54,170 nt of DNA from Phycisphaerae bacterium. GTDB lineage: Bacteria; Planctomycetota; Phycisphaerae; Phycisphaerales; UBA1924. The notes beneath the pieces were generated by a model. It had not been told where the DNA came from. It saw only the letters and a list, made by a program, of their open reading frames with translations, and made no database searches. The stretch is from NCBI GenBank assembly GCA_030426395.1, contig JAUHYE010000008.1:1-54170 (forward strand), written 5' to 3'. This document shows positions 6,962 to 42,783 of this stretch, piece by piece; position 1 is the stretch's first letter; every line of letters starts with the position of its first letter. Position numbers and translations under genes: made by a program.

Positions 6962-7780
6962 ATGTCCCCGATCCCATCGTCCATCTCGGGCCTCCAGATC
7001 AGTTTCGATCGATTTGTGAGGGTTTTACTCGCTGTTTTATTCACTGGACTGTGGCTGGCTGCCGCATCCGGGTGCGCCCGGCGATCCGAGTTGCCGGTAA
7101 CGCTGACCTTCCGCAACGTGCGGGCCGTGGTCGTGCAGGGCGACAGCACCGATGGCCGCAGCCGGGTGACGCGGAGCGAGTGGGACCAGATCTGGCCGGT
7201 GGTCATCCGCCACCACAAGGTGAGCAACCGGATGGCGATGAAGCCCAGCTTCGACTCAGGTCCGCCGACGATGGATTCGATTGCGGGTGTAGAGGTGCGG
7301 GACTACACCGCCAACATCGTGGTGGACAGCTTCAGTGGGCTCTCGAAGCTGCACCGGAGCCTGGAAGAACTGCAAGGGCAGCCGATCGCGCCGGGCCGTC
7401 GCCTGCAACTCTCGCTCAGCGACGTGTCTCTCGGCTTCTCGGGCAACTTCATCAGTGCAAGGCGGACCGAGATGCTCCAGGGCCGCACGCTGCCCGGGGC
7501 GACGGTGGTGCTGTACGACCGCGACCCCGACAGCCCGCGCATCGTGCGGGCCGATCAGACCGGCGAGTGGATGGCCCCGATCGTGACCACGCCCAACCAA
7601 CGGTCGGTGGTGGGCTACAGCGTGCCTCCCGGCGTGCGAGACCGTCCCGAGACGAGGCGGTACTTCCGCATCGACCTGCGCACCAACATCGGCGAGGACA
7701 TCGACGAACGCCGCTTCAACAGCGAGATCGACGCGATGCGCGGCGGGGTGGGCAGCTTCATCAACCGCATCACGGGCTAG
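6962..7780 (+). CDS. Hypothetical lipoprotein
   Basis: A 272-residue protein with a hydrophobic segment (residues ~18-34) ending in AASGC, a plausible lipobox with Cys38. The mature part begins with a predicted beta-rich region (ELPVTLTFRNVRAVVVQG) and has a later stretch, LPGATVVLYDRDPDSP, with a beta-sandwich look. I do not recognise the family. AAAGG lies just before the ATG. It is divergent from the TPR lipoprotein and sits 21 bp before a dehydrogenase gene that appears to have its own promoter hexamer. Confidence 0.65.
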   Translation: MSPIPSSISGLQISFDRFVRVLLAVLFTGLWLAAASGCARRSELPVTLTFRNVRAVVVQGDSTDGRSRVTRSEWDQIWPVVIRHHKVSNRMAMKPSFDSGPPTMDSIAGVEVRDYTANIVVDSFSGLSKLHRSLEELQGQPIAPGRRLQLSLSDVSLGFSGNFISARRTEMLQGRTLPGATVVLYDRDPDSPRIVRADQTGEWMAPIVTTPNQRSVVGYSVPPGVRDRPETRRYFRIDLRTNIGEDIDERRFNSEIDAMRGGVGSFINRITG

Positions 7781-36627: not shown

Positions 36628-37386
36628 ATGGACGACGCCAGCCTCCTTGGCCCCGCGATCGATCTCAACGCCGACGCGGGCGAACTCGATGAGCTGCTCG
36701 AGAGCGACCTTGCTTTGCTCGGCGTTGTGTCGTCGGTCAACATCGCCTGCGGTGGGCATGCGGGCTCCGTCGAGCTGATGCGGAGCGTGGTCCGGCGTGC
36801 GGCCGATCGCTGCGTTGGCATCGGCGCGCATCCTGGGTATGAAGATGCTGACGGCTTCGGCCGGCGTGAGCTCGGTCTCGACGCCGGTGAGATCTATCGA
36901 TTGTGCCGAGAGCAAACCGCGCGGCTGGCGCGCGTCGCGGCCGAGACGGGCTCGACACTCTCGCACGCCAAGCCGCATGGGGCGATGTACCACCGCGCGA
37001 TGGCCGACGCCGACGCGGCGGAGGCGGTGGCCAAGGGCTGCCTCGACGCGGTGGCCGAGGTCACGGGCGACCCGTTTGCGTCGCTCGCGTTCTTCGGCCT
37101 GCCCGACACCGCCGGAGCGGCTCGATGGAACGAGATGGACCTTCCCGTGCGGCGCGAGGGTTTTGCCGATCGCCGATACGCGGCCGATGGCTCCATGCTG
37201 GCTCGCACCGAGGCGGGTGCCGTGCTGGCCGATCCACAGGAAGCGGCGCTGCAGGGCCTGCAACTGGCCCGCAGCGGGCGATTCGAGACACTGTGCGTGC
37301 ACGGCGACACGCCTGGCGCGCTCCGCACTGCCCAGGCGGTTCGGTCGGCTTTGCTCGAGGGCGGGGTGCGGATCGTGCCGGTGTAG
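36628..37386 (+). CDS. pxpA: 5-oxoprolinase subunit PxpA (LamB/YcsF family)
   Basis: The 252-residue third subunit. It starts with the family motif IDLNADAGEL (LNxDxGE), followed by VNIACGGHAGS, GIGAHPGYEDADGFGRRELG and VKPHGA-type SHAKPHGAMYHRAM. RRADIRY-like FADRRYAADGSML and the C-terminal CVHGDTPGALRTA are also conserved. The set pxpBCA is complete, so the organism should be able to recycle 5-oxoproline formed from glutamine or glutamyl peptides. The his promoter begins 14 bp after the stop, with no visible terminator between, so some read-through into the his leader is possible. Confidence 0.95.
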   Translation: MDDASLLGPAIDLNADAGELDELLESDLALLGVVSSVNIACGGHAGSVELMRSVVRRAADRCVGIGAHPGYEDADGFGRRELGLDAGEIYRLCREQTARLARVAAETGSTLSHAKPHGAMYHRAMADADAAEAVAKGCLDAVAEVTGDPFASLAFFGLPDTAGAARWNEMDLPVRREGFADRRYAADGSMLARTEAGAVLADPQEAALQGLQLARSGRFETLCVHGDTPGALRTAQAVRSALLEGGVRIVPV

Positions 37387-37399
37387 TCGAGCGATCGGC

Positions 37400-37427
37400 T
37401 TGACAGGCACTCAACCGCGGCTATCTT
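37400..37427 (+). promoter_or_regulatory. Promoter of the histidine operon (TTGACA-N16-TATCTT)
   Basis: A perfect -35 hexamer TTGACA (37400-37405) and TATCTT (37422-37427) are 16 bases apart. The expected transcription start, six to eight bases past the -10, falls at 37434-37436, at or just before the leader-peptide ATG, so the leader peptide would be translated from a leaderless or nearly leaderless RNA. Confidence 0.75.
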
Positions 37428-37435
37428 CCATTGAG

Positions 37436-37501
37436 ATGATCGCAGCTTCTCTCCATCACCACCATGCCCATCTGCCGCACCCGCGAGGGAGCCGGATGTA
37501 A
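37436..37501 (+). CDS. hisL: Histidine-rich leader peptide of the his operon attenuator
   Basis: A 21-residue ORF that starts MIAASLHHHHAH and continues LPHPRGSRM before TAA. Six of 21 codons are His (positions 7-10, 12 and 15), four of them consecutive. It lies directly behind the his promoter and ends 35 bases before the terminator hairpin at 37537, which fits the arrangement of enterobacterial hisL. Codons 18-20 form the 5' half of a competing antiterminator helix. No Shine-Dalgarno sequence precedes the ATG; initiation is presumably leaderless. Its only role would be to let ribosome stalling at His codons report charged tRNA-His. Confidence 0.85.
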   Translation: MIAASLHHHHAHLPHPRGSRM

Positions 37502-37548
37502 GCGTGGCCTGAGGGATCGTTGATCTGAAGGACGCAAACGCCGGCCCC
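37487..37548 (+). promoter_or_regulatory. Antiterminator helix of the his attenuator
   Basis: GGGAGCCGG (37487-37495, leader codons 18-20) can pair with CCGGCCCC (37541-37548) over eight base pairs with A37490 bulged. The second strand is the 5' arm and loop of the terminator, so the two structures exclude each other. A ribosome stalled at His codons 7-12 leaves 37487-37495 free and favours read-through; one that reaches the stop codon covers it and lets the terminator form. Confidence 0.7.
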
Positions 37549-37562
37549 GAGCCGGCGTTTTT
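37537..37562 (+). terminator. Attenuator terminator upstream of hisG
   Basis: AACGCCGGC (37537-37545) and GCCGGCGTT (37551-37559) pair perfectly around CCCGA and continue into a run of five T residues (37558-37562). It lies between the leader peptide and hisG, 61 bases before the hisG ATG. Confidence 0.9.
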
Positions 37563-37623
37563 CGTGCACGGGCGAAGGCCGCGTGCAAGGAGCGTCGGCC
37601 GGGGCCAAGCCTGGAGCCGACCG

Positions 37624-38511
37624 ATGACCGTCATGCAGGAAGCCGTCGCGACCGCGACGACGATCAAGTTCGCGATACCCAAGGGCCGGATGTTCGAGGG
37701 CGTGCGCCGGCTGCTGGCCGACGGCGGGCTGGACATCTCCGCCACCGAGCGCGGCTACCGCCCGTCGATCTCGTTGCCGGACTTCGGAGTGAAGCTCTTA
37801 AAGCCGCGCGCGATCGTGGAGATGCTGGCGGCGGGCAGCCGAGACGTTGGCTTCGCCGGCGCCGATTGGGTGCGTGAGACCGCCGCCGACGTGGTCGAGA
37901 TCGTCGACACGGGGCTCGATCGCGTCCGGCTCGTGGCCGCGGCACCCGCCGCGCTGCTCGAGGGCGGGCGGCTTCCCGACCGGCCGCTGGTCGTCGCGTC
38001 GGAGTACGAGCGGATCGCGCAGGCGTGGATCGAGCAGCGCGGGCTCGACGCGATACTGCTGCGGTCGTACGGCGCGACGGAGGTGCTGCCACCCGAGGAC
38101 GCCGACTGCATCATCGACAATACCGCAACGGGCGCGACGCTGGCCGCCAACGGGCTGGTGATCATCGACGAGCTCATGACCTCTTCGACGCGGTTCTACG
38201 CGTCTCGCTCGGCCATGAGCGACCCCGCGAAACGAGCACAGATCGAGCGTGTCGGCCTGATCGTGCGATCGGTGCTCGAAGCCAGGCAGCGGGTAATGAT
38301 CGAGATCAATGTGCCGGCCGATCGCCTTGATGCGGTCGTGGGCGTGTTGCCCTGCATGCGCGAGCCGACGGTTTCGGCTTTGCGGTCGCAGTCGGGGTTC
38401 GCGGTGAAGGCGGCGGTGCGACGCGAGGAGTTGGCCGAGGTCGTGCCGCTCGTCAAGCAACTGGGCGGCACCGACATCGTGGTGATCCGGCCGGAGCAGA
38501 TCGTGCCATGA
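37624..38511 (+). CDS. hisG: ATP phosphoribosyltransferase, long form
   Basis: Catalyses the first, committed step of histidine synthesis, condensing ATP with PRPP. The 295-residue length and the C-terminal domain after residue ~215 (VMIEINVPADRLDAVVGVLP) identify the long, hexameric form that carries its own histidine-binding regulatory domain and needs no HisZ. Core motifs include FAIPKGRMFEG, DVGFAGADWV and the PRPP-loop DNTATGATLAANGL. GGAG lies eight bases before the ATG. Enzyme feedback inhibition would therefore be added to transcription attenuation. The stop overlaps the hisC ATG. Confidence 0.96.
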   Translation: MTVMQEAVATATTIKFAIPKGRMFEGVRRLLADGGLDISATERGYRPSISLPDFGVKLLKPRAIVEMLAAGSRDVGFAGADWVRETAADVVEIVDTGLDRVRLVAAAPAALLEGGRLPDRPLVVASEYERIAQAWIEQRGLDAILLRSYGATEVLPPEDADCIIDNTATGATLAANGLVIIDELMTSSTRFYASRSAMSDPAKRAQIERVGLIVRSVLEARQRVMIEINVPADRLDAVVGVLPCMREPTVSALRSQSGFAVKAAVRREELAEVVPLVKQLGGTDIVVIRPEQIVP

Positions 38512-39560
38512 GTGCCGCGACGAAGGACATTGAGCTTCAACCGACTGCGCGGCTTGAGGGGCTTCGGCCGTATGGCACCGGGAGCGTTCGGGCCGGGGGA
38601 GCCTTGCTGCTGGACGCCAACGAGGGACCGGCGGCTCCGCGGGCGTGGTTGGAACGATTGCGTGCGGTCGATGGCGAGTCGCTGCGGCGGTATCCGAACG
38701 CCGGTTCGCTGGAGGCGGCGATCGCCGAGCGGTTTGGCGTGAACACGGCACGCGTGGTTGTGACGGCGGGCGGTGATGATGCGATCGATCGGGTGTGCCG
38801 TGTGTCGCTCGAGCCGGGCCGCTCGCTCGTCGTGCACATGCCGACGTTCGAGATGATCACGAGAGGGGCGCGGCTGGCGGGCGGCGACGTGCGGAGCGTG
38901 CCGTGGCTTGGTGGTCGCTTCCCGATCGACGACTTCGAAGCCGCGCTTTCACCCGACACGAGCCTGGTGGCGATCGTGTCACCGAATAACCCCACGGGTG
39001 GCGTCGTCGCGATCGAGGACATCGAGCGGGCGTGTCGTGCCGCGCGAGCGGTGGGGGCGCTGGTGCTGGTCGATCTGGCGTACATCGGGTTCGCGGATGA
39101 GGATCCGACGCAACGCTTGCTGGAGATCGACAACGCCGTGATAGTGCGCACGTTTTCCAAGGCGTTCGGTCTTGCGGGCTTACGCGCGGGCTACGCGATC
39201 GCGGGCGAGCGCGTGGCCGGGTGGTTGCGGACGGTGGGCGGGCCGTACCCGGTGTCGGCGCCCGGGCTCGCGATCGCGGGGATGGCTTGGGAAGCCGGGG
39301 TCGATGTTTCGTACCTGGATCGCGTTCGACGCGAGCGGCAGCGGCTCCAGTCGTGGCTGCGGGAGCACGGCGTCGAGGTGTGGGACTCCTGGGCGAACTT
39401 CGTGCTGGCGCGCGTCGATGCGTTCGCGCTCGCGGAGCGGGGCATCATCGTTCGGGCGTTCGGTGGTGAGATGGCCGGATGGTCTCGGATCACGCTGCCC
39501 GGCGAGGATGGATCGTTCGTGCGACTGATGGATGCGCTCGGAGAGGTGTGCGATGGGTGA
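38508..39560 (+). CDS. hisC: Histidinol-phosphate aminotransferase
   Basis: A class I/II PLP aminotransferase of 350 residues that makes histidinol phosphate from imidazole-acetol phosphate and glutamate. Visible motifs are LDANEGP near residue 36, the PNNPTGG loop, the Asp/Tyr pair in LVDLAYIGFADE and the PLP Lys in FSKAFGLAGLRAGYAI. It starts with ATGA overlapping hisG. At 350 residues it is normal for HisC. Position inside the his operon settles the substrate over other aminotransferases of the family. Confidence 0.94.
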   Translation: MSAATKDIELQPTARLEGLRPYGTGSVRAGGALLLDANEGPAAPRAWLERLRAVDGESLRRYPNAGSLEAAIAERFGVNTARVVVTAGGDDAIDRVCRVSLEPGRSLVVHMPTFEMITRGARLAGGDVRSVPWLGGRFPIDDFEAALSPDTSLVAIVSPNNPTGGVVAIEDIERACRAARAVGALVLVDLAYIGFADEDPTQRLLEIDNAVIVRTFSKAFGLAGLRAGYAIAGERVAGWLRTVGGPYPVSAPGLAIAGMAWEAGVDVSYLDRVRRERQRLQSWLREHGVEVWDSWANFVLARVDAFALAERGIIVRAFGGEMAGWSRITLPGEDGSFVRLMDALGEVCDG

Positions 39561-40143
39561 CCGAAGGGCGCGTCTCACGCGCGAGACTCGCGAGACCGGT
39601 ATCGAGGCGTCGATCGACCTGGATGGGACCGGCATTGCGAAGATCGAAACCGGGATCGGCTTCCTCGACCACATGCTCGGCGCGATCGCGCTGCACGGCC
39701 GGGTCGATCTCGAGCTTGCGTGCGAGGGCGATCTGGATGTCGATGATCACCACACGGTAGAAGATATTGCCCTGGTCGTCGGGCAGCTCGTCGACAGGGC
39801 CCTGGGCGATCGGGTGGACATCGTTCGCTTCGCGCACGCGTACGTGCCGCTCGACGAGGCGCTGGCCCGCGTCGATGTTGACTTCTCGGGGCGGCCATCG
39901 GCCGTGGTCGATCTTGGCCTGAAGCGCGAGATGCTCGGGGGCGTGGCGTGCGAGAATCTGACGCATTGGTTCGTCTCGTTCGCCGCGGCCGCACGGTGCG
40001 CTTTGCACGTCGATGTGCTCCGGGGTGAGAACGACCACCACCGGGCCGAGGCGGCGTTCAAGGCGTTCGCGCTCGCGCTGCGTTCGGCGGTCGCGATCGA
40101 TCCTCGACCGGCGGGTGTTCCGTCGACGAAGGGGGTGCTGTGA
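39553..40143 (+). CDS. hisB: Imidazoleglycerol-phosphate dehydratase
   Basis: The sixth-step dehydratase, 196 residues, monofunctional (no fused histidinol-phosphate phosphatase as in E. coli HisB). The manganese-binding repeats are present: GFLDHMLGAIALHG, DDHHTVEDIALVVGQ and GENDHHRAEAAFKAF. The start overlaps the end of hisC by eight bases, and its TGA overlaps the hisH ATG (TGATG). No separate hisN-type phosphatase gene is visible in the operon, so that activity must come from elsewhere. Confidence 0.96.
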   Translation: MGDRRARLTRETRETGIEASIDLDGTGIAKIETGIGFLDHMLGAIALHGRVDLELACEGDLDVDDHHTVEDIALVVGQLVDRALGDRVDIVRFAHAYVPLDEALARVDVDFSGRPSAVVDLGLKREMLGGVACENLTHWFVSFAAAARCALHVDVLRGENDHHRAEAAFKAFALALRSAVAIDPRPAGVPSTKGVL

Positions 40144-40742
40144 TGGTGTCGATCGTGCAAACCGGCGTGGCGAATAGGGCGTCGGTCATCGCGGCGTTCG
40201 AGCGGTGCGGCGTGGAGGCGACGCGAGCGGCAACGGCCGGGGACATCGAGGCCGCGCCGTTCCTCGTTCTACCGGGCGTGGGGTCGTTCGGCGCCGGCAT
40301 GGAGGCATTGCGCGCGGCGGGCCTGGTCGACGCTTTGCGAGTGCGAATCGAGGCGGGCGGGCCCACGCTGGCGATCTGCCTGGGCATGCAACTGCTGTGC
40401 GCCTCGTCCGAGGAATCGCCGGGCGTCGAGGGGCTGGGCGTGATCGATGCCATGGTCGAGGCCTTATCGCAGCCGGCTAGGCCGCGGTTCGGGTGGAACC
40501 GCGTCGTGCCAGAGTTCGGGTGCGAGGTAATCACGGAGGGCTTTGCGTACTACGCGAACTCCTTCGGCGTGTGCGAGCGGCCGGCGGGCTGGGCGTGCGC
40601 GATGTCGGCGCTCGAGGCTCCCTTCGTGGGCGCGATGCGTCGTGGCGCCGTCGTGGCGTGCCAGTTCCACCCAGAACTGTCGGGCCCGTGGGGCTTAAAG
40701 CTGCTCCAGCGATGGATGGCGATGGGGGTGGCGGCATGCTGA
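40143..40742 (+). CDS. hisH: Imidazole glycerol phosphate synthase glutaminase subunit
   Basis: The class I glutamine amidotransferase half of IGP synthase, 199 residues; it supplies ammonia to HisF. The oxyanion and nucleophile region reads LAICLGMQLLC (Cys near residue 81), the catalytic His/Glu region CQFHPELSG, and the N-terminal LVLPGVGSFGAGM is typical. Its 3' end overlaps the hisF ATG by seven bases, keeping the two subunits coupled for stoichiometric assembly. Confidence 0.95.
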   Translation: MVSIVQTGVANRASVIAAFERCGVEATRAATAGDIEAAPFLVLPGVGSFGAGMEALRAAGLVDALRVRIEAGGPTLAICLGMQLLCASSEESPGVEGLGVIDAMVEALSQPARPRFGWNRVVPEFGCEVITEGFAYYANSFGVCERPAGWACAMSALEAPFVGAMRRGAVVACQFHPELSGPWGLKLLQRWMAMGVAAC

Positions 40743-41503
40743 CCAAGCGAGTGATCCCGTGCCTGGACATCCGCGATGGCCGAATCGTCAAGGGCACGAG
40801 CTTCGCCAATCTGCGCGACGCGGGCGACCCTGTGGAGCGTGCGGCGGCGTACGAGGCGCAGGGTGCTGACGAACTCGTCGTGCTTGACGTCTCGGCGACG
40901 CCCGACGGGCGCGAGGCGGCGCTGCACACGGTCGAGGCGATCCGTCGGGCCATCTCGATCCCGCTGACCGTCGGCGGCGGCGTTCGCACGATCGCGCACG
41001 CGCGTGCCTTGCTCGAAGCAGGAGCCGACAAGGTGGGCGTCAACTCGGCGGCCGTGGAGCGGCCGGAATTGATCACCGAGATCGCCCAGCGAATGGGCGC
41101 GCAGTGCGTCGTGCTGGCGATCGATGCGGCCCGCAGCGCAAGCTCGTGGGAGGTCGTGACGCGGTCGGGCACGAACCGGACGGGCATCGACGCCTTGGAG
41201 TGGGCGTGCACCGGCGTGGCGGCCGGGGCGGGCGAGATCCTGCTGACCAGCTTTGACGAGGACGGGCGCGGCAACGGGTACGACCTGCAACTGATCCGTG
41301 CGATCTCGGGCGTCGTCAACGTCTCGATCATCGCTTCGGGCGGCGCGTCGACGGCGACCCACATGGTCGATGGGTTCGAGGCCGGGGCCGACGCGGTGCT
41401 GGCGGCGTCGATCTTCCACGACGGCGTGACCAGCGTGGGCGAACTCAAGGAGCAACTGAGGGCCGCGGGCGTGCCCGTGCGGATGATGGAGGTAGAGCCA
41501 TGA
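40736..41503 (+). CDS. hisF: Imidazole glycerol phosphate synthase cyclase subunit
   Basis: A 255-residue (beta/alpha)8 barrel that cyclises PRFAR with ammonia from HisH to IGP and AICAR. Catalytic Asp11 lies in VIPCLDIRDGRIVKG and the second Asp in VVLAIDAARS; the phosphate-binding motifs VGGGVRTI and IASGGAS are intact. The stretch LLTSFDEDGRGNGYDL matches the family's LLTSMDRDG loop with small changes. It overlaps the start of the hisA fusion gene by four bases (ATGA). Confidence 0.96.
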   Translation: MLTKRVIPCLDIRDGRIVKGTSFANLRDAGDPVERAAAYEAQGADELVVLDVSATPDGREAALHTVEAIRRAISIPLTVGGGVRTIAHARALLEAGADKVGVNSAAVERPELITEIAQRMGAQCVVLAIDAARSASSWEVVTRSGTNRTGIDALEWACTGVAAGAGEILLTSFDEDGRGNGYDLQLIRAISGVVNVSIIASGGASTATHMVDGFEAGADAVLAASIFHDGVTSVGELKEQLRAAGVPVRMMEVEP

Positions 41504-42783
41504 TGGTTCCGTCCGTGGATCTTTGCGGCGGCAACGCCGTGCAGCTCGTGGGTGGCAAGGAGCTGGCGGTCGATGCCGGCGATCCGGTGCCGATCGCCGA
41601 GCGGTTCGGCCTGGTCGGCGAGGTCGCGGTGATCGATCTTGACGCCGCGATGGGCACCGGATCGAATCGCGAGGTCGTGCTCGATCTGGTGCGGCGCGTG
41701 CCGTGCCGGGTTGGCGGCGGCATCCGCGATGCAAAGACGGCGATCGAGTTGCTCGATGCCGGAGCGCGCCGGGTCATCCTGGGAACGGCGGCAACGCCCG
41801 ACGTGCTGCAAGAGCTGCCCCTCGAACGCGTGATCGCCGCGCTCGATGCGCGCGACGGCGAGGTTGTCGACAAGGGGTGGACTCGGGCGACCGGCCGACG
41901 CGTCGAGGATCGGATCGCGGAGCTGCGCGAGCACGTCGGCGGGTTCCTGGTGACCTTTGTCGAGCAGGAGGGTGGGCTCGGCGGGTGGAGCGAGGCGCAG
42001 CTCGAGCGGATCGCGCAGCTCGTCGAGCTGGCGGGGCCAACGCGGCTGACCGTCGCGGGTGGCGTGAAGACGCCGACCGACGTCGCGGCGGTCGACCGCC
42101 TCGGGGCCGACGCGCAGGTCGGCATGGCGCTCTACACCGATGCTTTCGACCTGGCCGAGGGCTTCTGCGCACCGCTCACGAGCGATCGAACCGACGGGCT
42201 CTGGCCCACCATCGTCACCGATCCCGGCGGCCGGGCGCTCGGGCTGGTGTATTCCGATCTCGAATCGGTGCGGGCGTCCATCGAGCGGCGACGCGGCGTG
42301 TACTTCTCGCGCTCGCGCGGCGGGCTGTGGGCCAAGGGCGAGACGTCGGGCAACGTGCAGGAGTTGCTGGGCATCTCGGTCGACTGCGACCGCGACGCGC
42401 TGCGGTTCACCGTGCGGCAGCGCGGGGCGTTCTGTCACACGGGGACGGCGACGTGCTTTGGCGAGTCGCGGGGGCTCGCGAGCCTGGACGCGACGCTGGC
42501 CGAGCGCGTCCAATCGCCTCCAGCGGGTTCGTATACGGCCCGGCTGCTCGACGATCCCTCGTTGCTTCGGGCCAAGCTGCTGGAAGAGGCGGGCGAGCTG
42601 ATCGACGCCGACAGCGCGGAAGACGCGGCCCACGAGGCGGCGGACGTCGCGTACTTCGCGCTCGTTGCCGCCCGAGCCCGTGGTGCGACGCTCGAGAGTC
42701 TCGAGCGAGAGCTGGACTGCCGGAGCCTTCGCGTGACGCGACGGCCGGGGAACGCCAAGGTGAACATCGGGAGCGACGCGTGA
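41500..42783 (+). CDS. hisAIE: Trifunctional HisA-HisI-HisE fusion
   Basis: A 427-residue protein joining three steps. Residues ~1-222 are the HisA isomerase barrel (SVDLCGGNAVQL with Asp7-type base, RVGGGIRDAKT, and ALDARDGEVVDKGW with the acid Asp near 116). Residues ~230-322 are PRA-cyclohydrolase (HisI), with its metal set DCDRD (295-299), Cys312 and Cys319 and the SRSRGGLWAKGETSGN signature. Residues ~325-405 are PRA-ATP pyrophosphohydrolase (HisE), with LLRAKLLEEAGELIDA and AADVAYFALVA. HisI-HisE fusions are common; adding HisA in front is unusual. GGAGGT lies before the ATG at 41500. Confidence 0.92.
   Translation: MMVPSVDLCGGNAVQLVGGKELAVDAGDPVPIAERFGLVGEVAVIDLDAAMGTGSNREVVLDLVRRVPCRVGGGIRDAKTAIELLDAGARRVILGTAATPDVLQELPLERVIAALDARDGEVVDKGWTRATGRRVEDRIAELREHVGGFLVTFVEQEGGLGGWSEAQLERIAQLVELAGPTRLTVAGGVKTPTDVAAVDRLGADAQVGMALYTDAFDLAEGFCAPLTSDRTDGLWPTIVTDPGGRALGLVYSDLESVRASIERRRGVYFSRSRGGLWAKGETSGNVQELLGISVDCDRDALRFTVRQRGAFCHTGTATCFGESRGLASLDATLAERVQSPPAGSYTARLLDDPSLLRAKLLEEAGELIDADSAEDAAHEAADVAYFALVAARARGATLESLERELDCRSLRVTRRPGNAKVNIGSDA

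Follow-up and report, generated by a model that had tools for sequence, protein, structure and literature searches.

A predicted leaderless histidine attenuator before the his operon of a planctomycete and in related HisG loci

The stretch of DNA analysed here (the window, 54,170 nt from a Phycisphaerae bacterium) contains a short His-rich ORF directly upstream of a histidine operon, and the ORF begins only a few nucleotides behind a promoter. Two questions arise from this arrangement. Does the ORF serve as the sensor of a ribosome-mediated attenuator, and could it be read from an RNA that has essentially no 5′ UTR? A first-pass annotation, made from the window alone, had proposed both, together with a planctomycete origin of the DNA, which our comparative evidence supports. 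In the current study, we compared the locus with related hisG loci (loci and genomes are cited by L and G numbers), and the features on which the argument turns are collected in Table 1.

Table 1. Positions of the his leader elements in the window, with the Trp leader loci of related trpE genes
Feature	Position	Strand	Basis
-35 box TTGACA	37400..37405	+	sequence, promoter scan; TTGAC in most leader-bearing relatives
-10 box TATCTT, 8 nt before leader ATG	37422..37427	+	sequence, promoter scan
Leader ORF MIAASLHHHHAHLPHPRGSRM, 21 codons and stop, predicted leaderless, no Shine-Dalgarno sequence	37436..37501	+	sequence and relatives
Sensor His codons 7-10, 12, 15	37454..37480	+	sequence
Antiterminator 5′ half GGGAGCCGG, leader codons 18-20	37487..37495	+	pairing and relatives
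Terminator hairpin AACGCCGGC-CCCGA-GCCGGCGTT and T-run	37537..37562	+	sequence; covariation in relatives
GGAG, Shine-Dalgarno-like sequence of hisG	37613..37616	+	sequence; motif class at 58/75 hisG starts
hisG, first operon gene	37624..38511	+	PF01634, PF08029, TIGR00070
Remaining operon: hisC-, hisB-, hisH-, hisF-like genes and hisA-hisI-hisE fusion	38508..42783	+	Pfam/NCBIfam
Trp leader loci L180 (own genome), L209, L210, L213, L214, L206			

A His-rich ORF between a LamB/YcsF gene and hisG

The intergenic stretch at issue spans 37387-37623, with a LamB/YcsF gene (Pfam/NCBIfam) as the upstream neighbour of the his promoter. Pfam and NCBIfam profiles give the operon the gene order hisGCBHF-AIE, in which the hisC-like aminotransferase scores under the TIGR01141 cut-off. 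One forward-strand ORF at 41500-42783 fuses HisA, HisI, and HisE domains (PF00977, PF01502, PF01503). The leader ORF is as the first-pass annotation read it, with six His among its 21 codons, four of them consecutive, and it ends in a TAA stop at 37499-37501, directly upstream of hisGCBHF-AIE. A run of four His occurs once in the whole window when three frames of each strand are read.

In line with the annotation's suggestion, relatives were scanned upstream of hisG. In the family's first sample of 37 genomes (the window's own, six others of the genus, and 30 others), 18 carry this kind of HisG, and 17 of the 18 hisG loci have an upstream short ORF with 5-9 His codons; in the eighteenth, L017, the layout is the same and the ORF contains two His codons. 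All seven genomes of the genus carry the His leader, the His codons being kept across the genus with CAT/CAC interchange, and the peptides differ widely between lineages apart from the His run. In L017, L046, and L127 the promoter, leader position, and terminator are alike and the leaders hold only 2-3 His codons; these are possibly decaying or retuned sensors. No HisG match was obtained in 19 of the 37 genomes of the window's family (f1), nor in any of 12 sampled genomes of the same-order families f2 and f4, one f2 genome (G208) being positive in the class sample. Histidine synthesis may have been lost from the HisG-negative genomes, or their HisG may have gone unrecognized.

A wider set of loci was assembled from a class sample, in which HisG was found in 211 of 298 genomes and fell into a group of 36 at E 1e-103 or better and a much weaker group of 175. 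To the stronger group we added the family-sample loci and the best 80 of 550 loci confirmed in a contig search with the family alignment. Twenty-one exact duplicates were removed; duplicates were dropped only where 200 nt of hisG were identical, and the near twins L094/L125, L010/L116, L058/L070, and L095/L102 stay in the set as loci that are not independent. After L100 and L101 (<250 nt upstream) were set aside, 105 loci of this HisG type were left, and 79 of these received a His leader call from an automated search. When 12 of the 26 uncalled loci were inspected, five (L017, L046, L069, L083, L127) were seen to have a leader or a His-poor one. The 79 include L067, although the script mis-assigned its promoter and start; L075, a false leader call, was taken out by hand.

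These comparisons bear on one alternative, namely that the ORF is rich in His by chance and the hairpin behind it merely serves the LamB/YcsF gene as a terminator. The his promoter begins only 13 nt after the stop of that gene, and the hairpin would indeed also block its read-through. However, the ORF, the promoter, and the hairpin recur before hisG in many lineages, and a four-His run arose in just 1 of 3000 dinucleotide shuffles of 37387-37623, so that we regard a chance ORF before a borrowed terminator as extremely improbable.

Distance between promoter and leader start codon

The promoter TTGACA-N16-TATCTT is present as the first-pass annotation had stated, with a spacer of 16 nt, and it is the single promoter that the scan detected in 37200-37700 (shuffle mean 0.0). 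Reading of the sequence revealed no Shine-Dalgarno sequence before the leader ORF of the window, again as annotated. In Streptomyces, mapped starts lie 4-9 nt from the -10 box, in most cases 5-7 nt, and a UTR of 0-3 nt was termed "leaderless" (PMC8079986); the distance of 8 nt between -10 box and ATG in the window agrees with this mapped range. Because of the usual -10-to-start distance, the 5′ end of the RNA is predicted to lie 0-3 nt before the leader ATG at 37436, and not necessarily at the ATG itself. The leaderless geometry claimed for the window is supported by the comparative evidence; the predicted transcription start may, but need not, coincide with the ATG.

Among the 79 called leaders, 72 start with ATG and seven with GTG, and the start codon stands 5-11 nt behind the -10 box in 76, with a peak at 7-8 nt, distances that are partly selected because the script chooses the top-scoring promoter ahead of the His cluster and from there moves to the first start codon in frame. 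For thirteen of the 76 the distance is 10-11 nt, and their UTR may be longer than 3 nt. A control free of this selection bias scored promoters at a fixed distance of 5-10 nt, at the leaders as well as at 2965 other start codons of the same loci, and 74 of the 79 leader promoters scored above the 99th percentile of these control start codons. At the leaderless distance, the leadered hisL of E. coli, included as a control, scored 2.54 and thus stayed under the 95th percentile of the control start codons, 3.43. Likewise, Shine-Dalgarno-like motifs were seen at three of the 79 leaders vs. 58 of the 75 nearest hisG starts, four loci having yielded no hisG start.

A His attenuator of the classical kind, in which the true start is located further upstream and the sensor ORF sits on a leadered RNA with a 5′ UTR of normal length, would account for a minority of the loci. 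Longer 5′ UTRs are indicated among the 79 for L134 (TATACT 47 nt before the ATG, AGGA nearby), L013 (19 nt), and L056 (61 nt), and the acidobacterial L162-L164, with GAGG, also look leadered. For the window we consider a leadered sensor improbable, since the promoter-to-start distance is 5-11 nt in nearly all called leaders, Shine-Dalgarno-like motifs, usual at hisG in these loci, are rare at their leaders, and no second promoter was detected in 37200-37700. We infer a start site at or just before the ATG and leaderless initiation of the sensor peptide.

Competing helices and the proposed mechanism

The terminator stem (37537-37545/37551-37559) is a perfect helix of 9 bp, or 10 bp when A37536-T37560 is counted. 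In this respect the first-pass annotation was correct, but the T-run that it described (37558-37562) is short, with just three T beyond the 9-bp stem, and a simple terminator scan called no terminator at this hairpin. Its placement of the antiterminator 5′ half in leader codons 18-20 agrees with our pairing, in which GGGAGCCGG forms 8 bp with CCGGCCCC (37541-37548), as 5 + 3 around a bulged A.

Both helices were examined in the relatives, in a set of 78 loci that omits L067 and L075 and in whose counts the mis-picked script hairpins of L009, L012, L018, L068, L099, and L109 remain. The hairpin starts 18-45 nt after the leader stop in 74 of the 78 (12-75 nt searched), and at least four T follow within 12 nt in 64. 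One hairpin core, ACGCCGGC/GCCGGCGT, is seen repeatedly in loci whose labels name different phyla, and the terminator pairs covary in a 15-row alignment, the covariation score being reached by none of 500 shuffles. For the antiterminator, covariation on that alignment alone is not convincing, with 48 to 178 of 500 shuffles reaching the measures. The best duplex with the terminator 5′ arm begins before the leader stop in 73 of the 78 loci, and in 33 (about four would be expected) the arm duplex is better than mono-nucleotide shuffles at p<=0.05; the duplex of the window itself has a p of 0.2 against such shuffles.

A further test of the arm was performed with 76 loci, mis-picked hairpins being replaced or omitted (L012, L018, and L067 were omitted). 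Native upstream RNA pairs with the arm more than shuffled RNA does in 70 of the 76, with a median arm pairing, before the 3′ partner exists, of 0.79 for native vs. 0.63 for shuffled upstream RNA; with a ribosome at the leader stop, the value is 0.42. Moreover, the two sides of the antiterminator change together. All six loci that combine a GCCGA arm with a recognizable leader segment have the matching T in that segment, while among the 43 with a GCCGG arm the segment has T in five and C in 38 (22 of the 76 loci lack a recognizable segment, and five lack a GCCGR arm). The difference gives a Fisher p of 3e-5, which overstates the case owing to relatedness among the loci: of the six with T, three are Acidimicrobiia, and the six represent about four lineages. 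These data support covariation of the antiterminator with the terminator in the broad set.

Comparison across relatives thus supports the reading of the element as a ribosome-mediated His attenuator, and we consider it very probable that the his operon is controlled in this way, by a sensor peptide whose RNA would have next to no 5′ UTR. A sigma-70-type promoter would start the RNA 0-3 nt before the leader ATG, and a ribosome would initiate at the RNA 5′ end. With His-tRNA scarce, the ribosome would stall at His7-His12 and leave GGGAGCCGG (37487-37495) free to capture the terminator 5′ arm, so that polymerase proceeds into hisGCBHF-AIE. With ample His-tRNA, the ribosome would reach the stop and cover GGGAGCCGG, and the hairpin at 37537-37559 would terminate transcription. 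Stalling, termination, and the response to histidine are what we infer from this geometry. The predicted His sensor would be read from the very 5′ end of its RNA, where the starts of transcription and translation coincide; the promoter itself would set the start codon of the sensor, and the first ribosome could load once the RNA emerges.

The element might instead act mainly after transcription, the terminated leader RNA or its peptide functioning in trans and attenuation being minor, as the precedent of rnTrpL and peTrpL in S. meliloti illustrates (PMC7298713). Yet the peptides vary between lineages outside the His run, and it is the two competing helices that recur; a principal role in trans is accordingly very unlikely. 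Attenuation in cis, if the proposed mechanism is right, would extend ribosome-mediated attenuation to Planctomycetota.

Distribution among HisG types and relation to known leaders

The leader goes with one type of HisG. In a HisG tree of 137 rows, made with a quick method, the type of the window and the intermediate types fall into one group with full support, and the other type stands outside it. None of 24 loci of that other type (11 from other families of the order, 13 picked from the weaker 175) has the leader. Those 11 came from a sample of 24 genomes of these other families, and their HisG proteins are distant. Likewise, no leader was seen in six f19 loci, which have intermediate scores at the bottom of the stronger group and are not part of the 105. 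In a sample of Acidobacteriota, HisG was present in 86 of 149 genomes. Three of its HisG fall into the window's group (G328 and G399, both full-length, and G490, a contig-edge fragment), and all three have a His-rich leader ORF. Several intermediate acidobacterial HisG types carry His-rich ORFs too, some preceded by an SD-like GAGG (L162-L164); the six weakest acidobacterial loci fetched (L174-L179) have no His-rich ORF. At L162-L164, a tandem pair of His-rich short ORFs lies ~140-430 nt upstream of hisG, the first with the GAGG motif, and this leadered arrangement is possibly a double His attenuator.

Grouped by the phylum in the record title, taken as given, leaders were called in 29/30 loci of Planctomycetota, 4/4 of Spirochaetota, 3/3 each of Acidobacteriota and Actinomycetota, 5/14 of Pseudomonadota, 3/10 of Myxococcota, 1/4 of Sumerlaeota, and 1/1 each of Bacteroidota and Cyanobacteriota, in a wider sample that is the best-scoring end of a longer list. 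Some titles are surely wrong; for instance, L062, labelled 'Cyanobacteria', is a near twin of L052, a member of the Phycisphaerales, in the HisG tree. The firmest case outside the planctomycetes is Acidobacteria bacterium Mor1 (L085), where the locus lies on a 6-Mb contig. Inside the window's HisG group, titles of several phyla intermix, and many branches are weakly supported. The intermixing is compatible with joint transfer of hisG and the leader, without proving it, and the tie to one HisG type makes joint transfer of regulator and operon testable.

Known systems resemble the element in part. E. coli hisL (RF00514 His_leader) similarly places a His-rich leader peptide before hisG, and the enterobacterial his attenuator has a terminator and an antiterminator (PMC9413887). 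In contrast to hisL, the window leader has no predicted 5′ UTR, its antiterminator half lies in the last leader codons, and its hairpin core is ACGCCGGC. Rfam RF00514 gave no match at gathering in the window and none in the genome, where the E. coli control passes the cut-off, and it was not listed up to E 10 in 37380-37640; no T-box was matched by Rfam at gathering in the window. His attenuators have been reported in Proteobacteria and three Firmicutes groups (PMC9413887). Those of the Firmicutes (Bacillus cereus group, Eubacteriales, Erysipelotrichales) share 3-5 His in a row and alternative hairpins, but belong to another phylum, and the word 'leaderless' is absent from that study (PMC9413887). 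In bacilli, a His leader precedes hisS/hisZ (PMC2965389); a study of C. glutamicum excluded a His leader there and proposed a T-box (PMC3896937).

The first-pass annotation had regarded a leaderless sensor peptide as a new variant of attenuation, and in this it was anticipated. In S. meliloti, the attenuator RNA of trpL is leaderless, its first bases being the ATG of the leader ORF (PMC7298713); it resembles the window leader in being leaderless, and differs in sensing Trp rather than His and in belonging to the Alphaproteobacteria. The Streptomyces leader ORFs leuL1, leuL2, trpL1, trpL2, ilvL, metL, and thrL are on leaderless transcripts, and leaderless genes of that genome have TTGACn/TAnnnT promoters (PMC8079986). 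The Streptomyces leaders differ in that no His leader is among the eight listed and several have no clear terminator (PMC8079986). Since these Sinorhizobium and Streptomyces leaders are already published, the leaderless principle is not new. Published leader-gene statistics include Planctomycetes, with no His example among them in the text available (PMC4833913). The same paper cites a search for His-containing leader peptides in Actinobacteria, where actinobacterial members may have been described earlier. The literature that we searched, mostly open-access papers, yielded neither a leaderless His leader nor a specific attenuator of planctomycetes, in keeping with the annotation's remark that it knew of none described for Planctomycetota. 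A leaderless His family in Planctomycetota and, by titles, in other phyla appears to be new.

On balance, we lean somewhat towards a broader proposal. An unrecognized family of leaderless His attenuators, marked by the ACGCCGGC/GCCGGCGT core and by one half of the antiterminator lying within the final leader codons, would accompany one HisG type across Planctomycetota and, by title, Acidobacteriota, Spirochaetota, Acidimicrobiia, and Myxococcota/deltaproteobacterial and gammaproteobacterial lineages; leaderless sensing would be general in the genus, for Trp as well; and the his operon and the sensor may have travelled together from phylum to phylum as a single cassette. The conserved hairpin core provides a motif for building an Rfam family.

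Beyond the his operon, one PF00682 match in the window's own genome was met while other attenuators were being sought. For the acetolactate synthase large subunit, there was no TIGR00118/ilvB match in this genome, which is given as 93% complete. Trp-rich leaders such as MSTAASKPVLPGNRKCGWLWRWQTGRGALGVVITGWRSA precede trpE in the genus, with a promoter of the form TTGAC (TTGAT in G005)-N17-CATAAT placed 7-8 nt before the ATG, and such a leader is predicted to be the genus's second leaderless sensor. It occurs in all five genus genomes with this trpE type (G000, G002-G005), in the window's own genome as L180 on G000:C39, upstream of trpE at 7311. G001 has another trpE type without a Trp leader, and G006 has no main trpE match. 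In the five genus Trp leaders, the 110 nt that follow the leader stop show no evident T-run terminator, and the other 25 of 29 trpE loci examined have no Trp leader. In G010, there is a shorter Trp leader with a T-run terminator.
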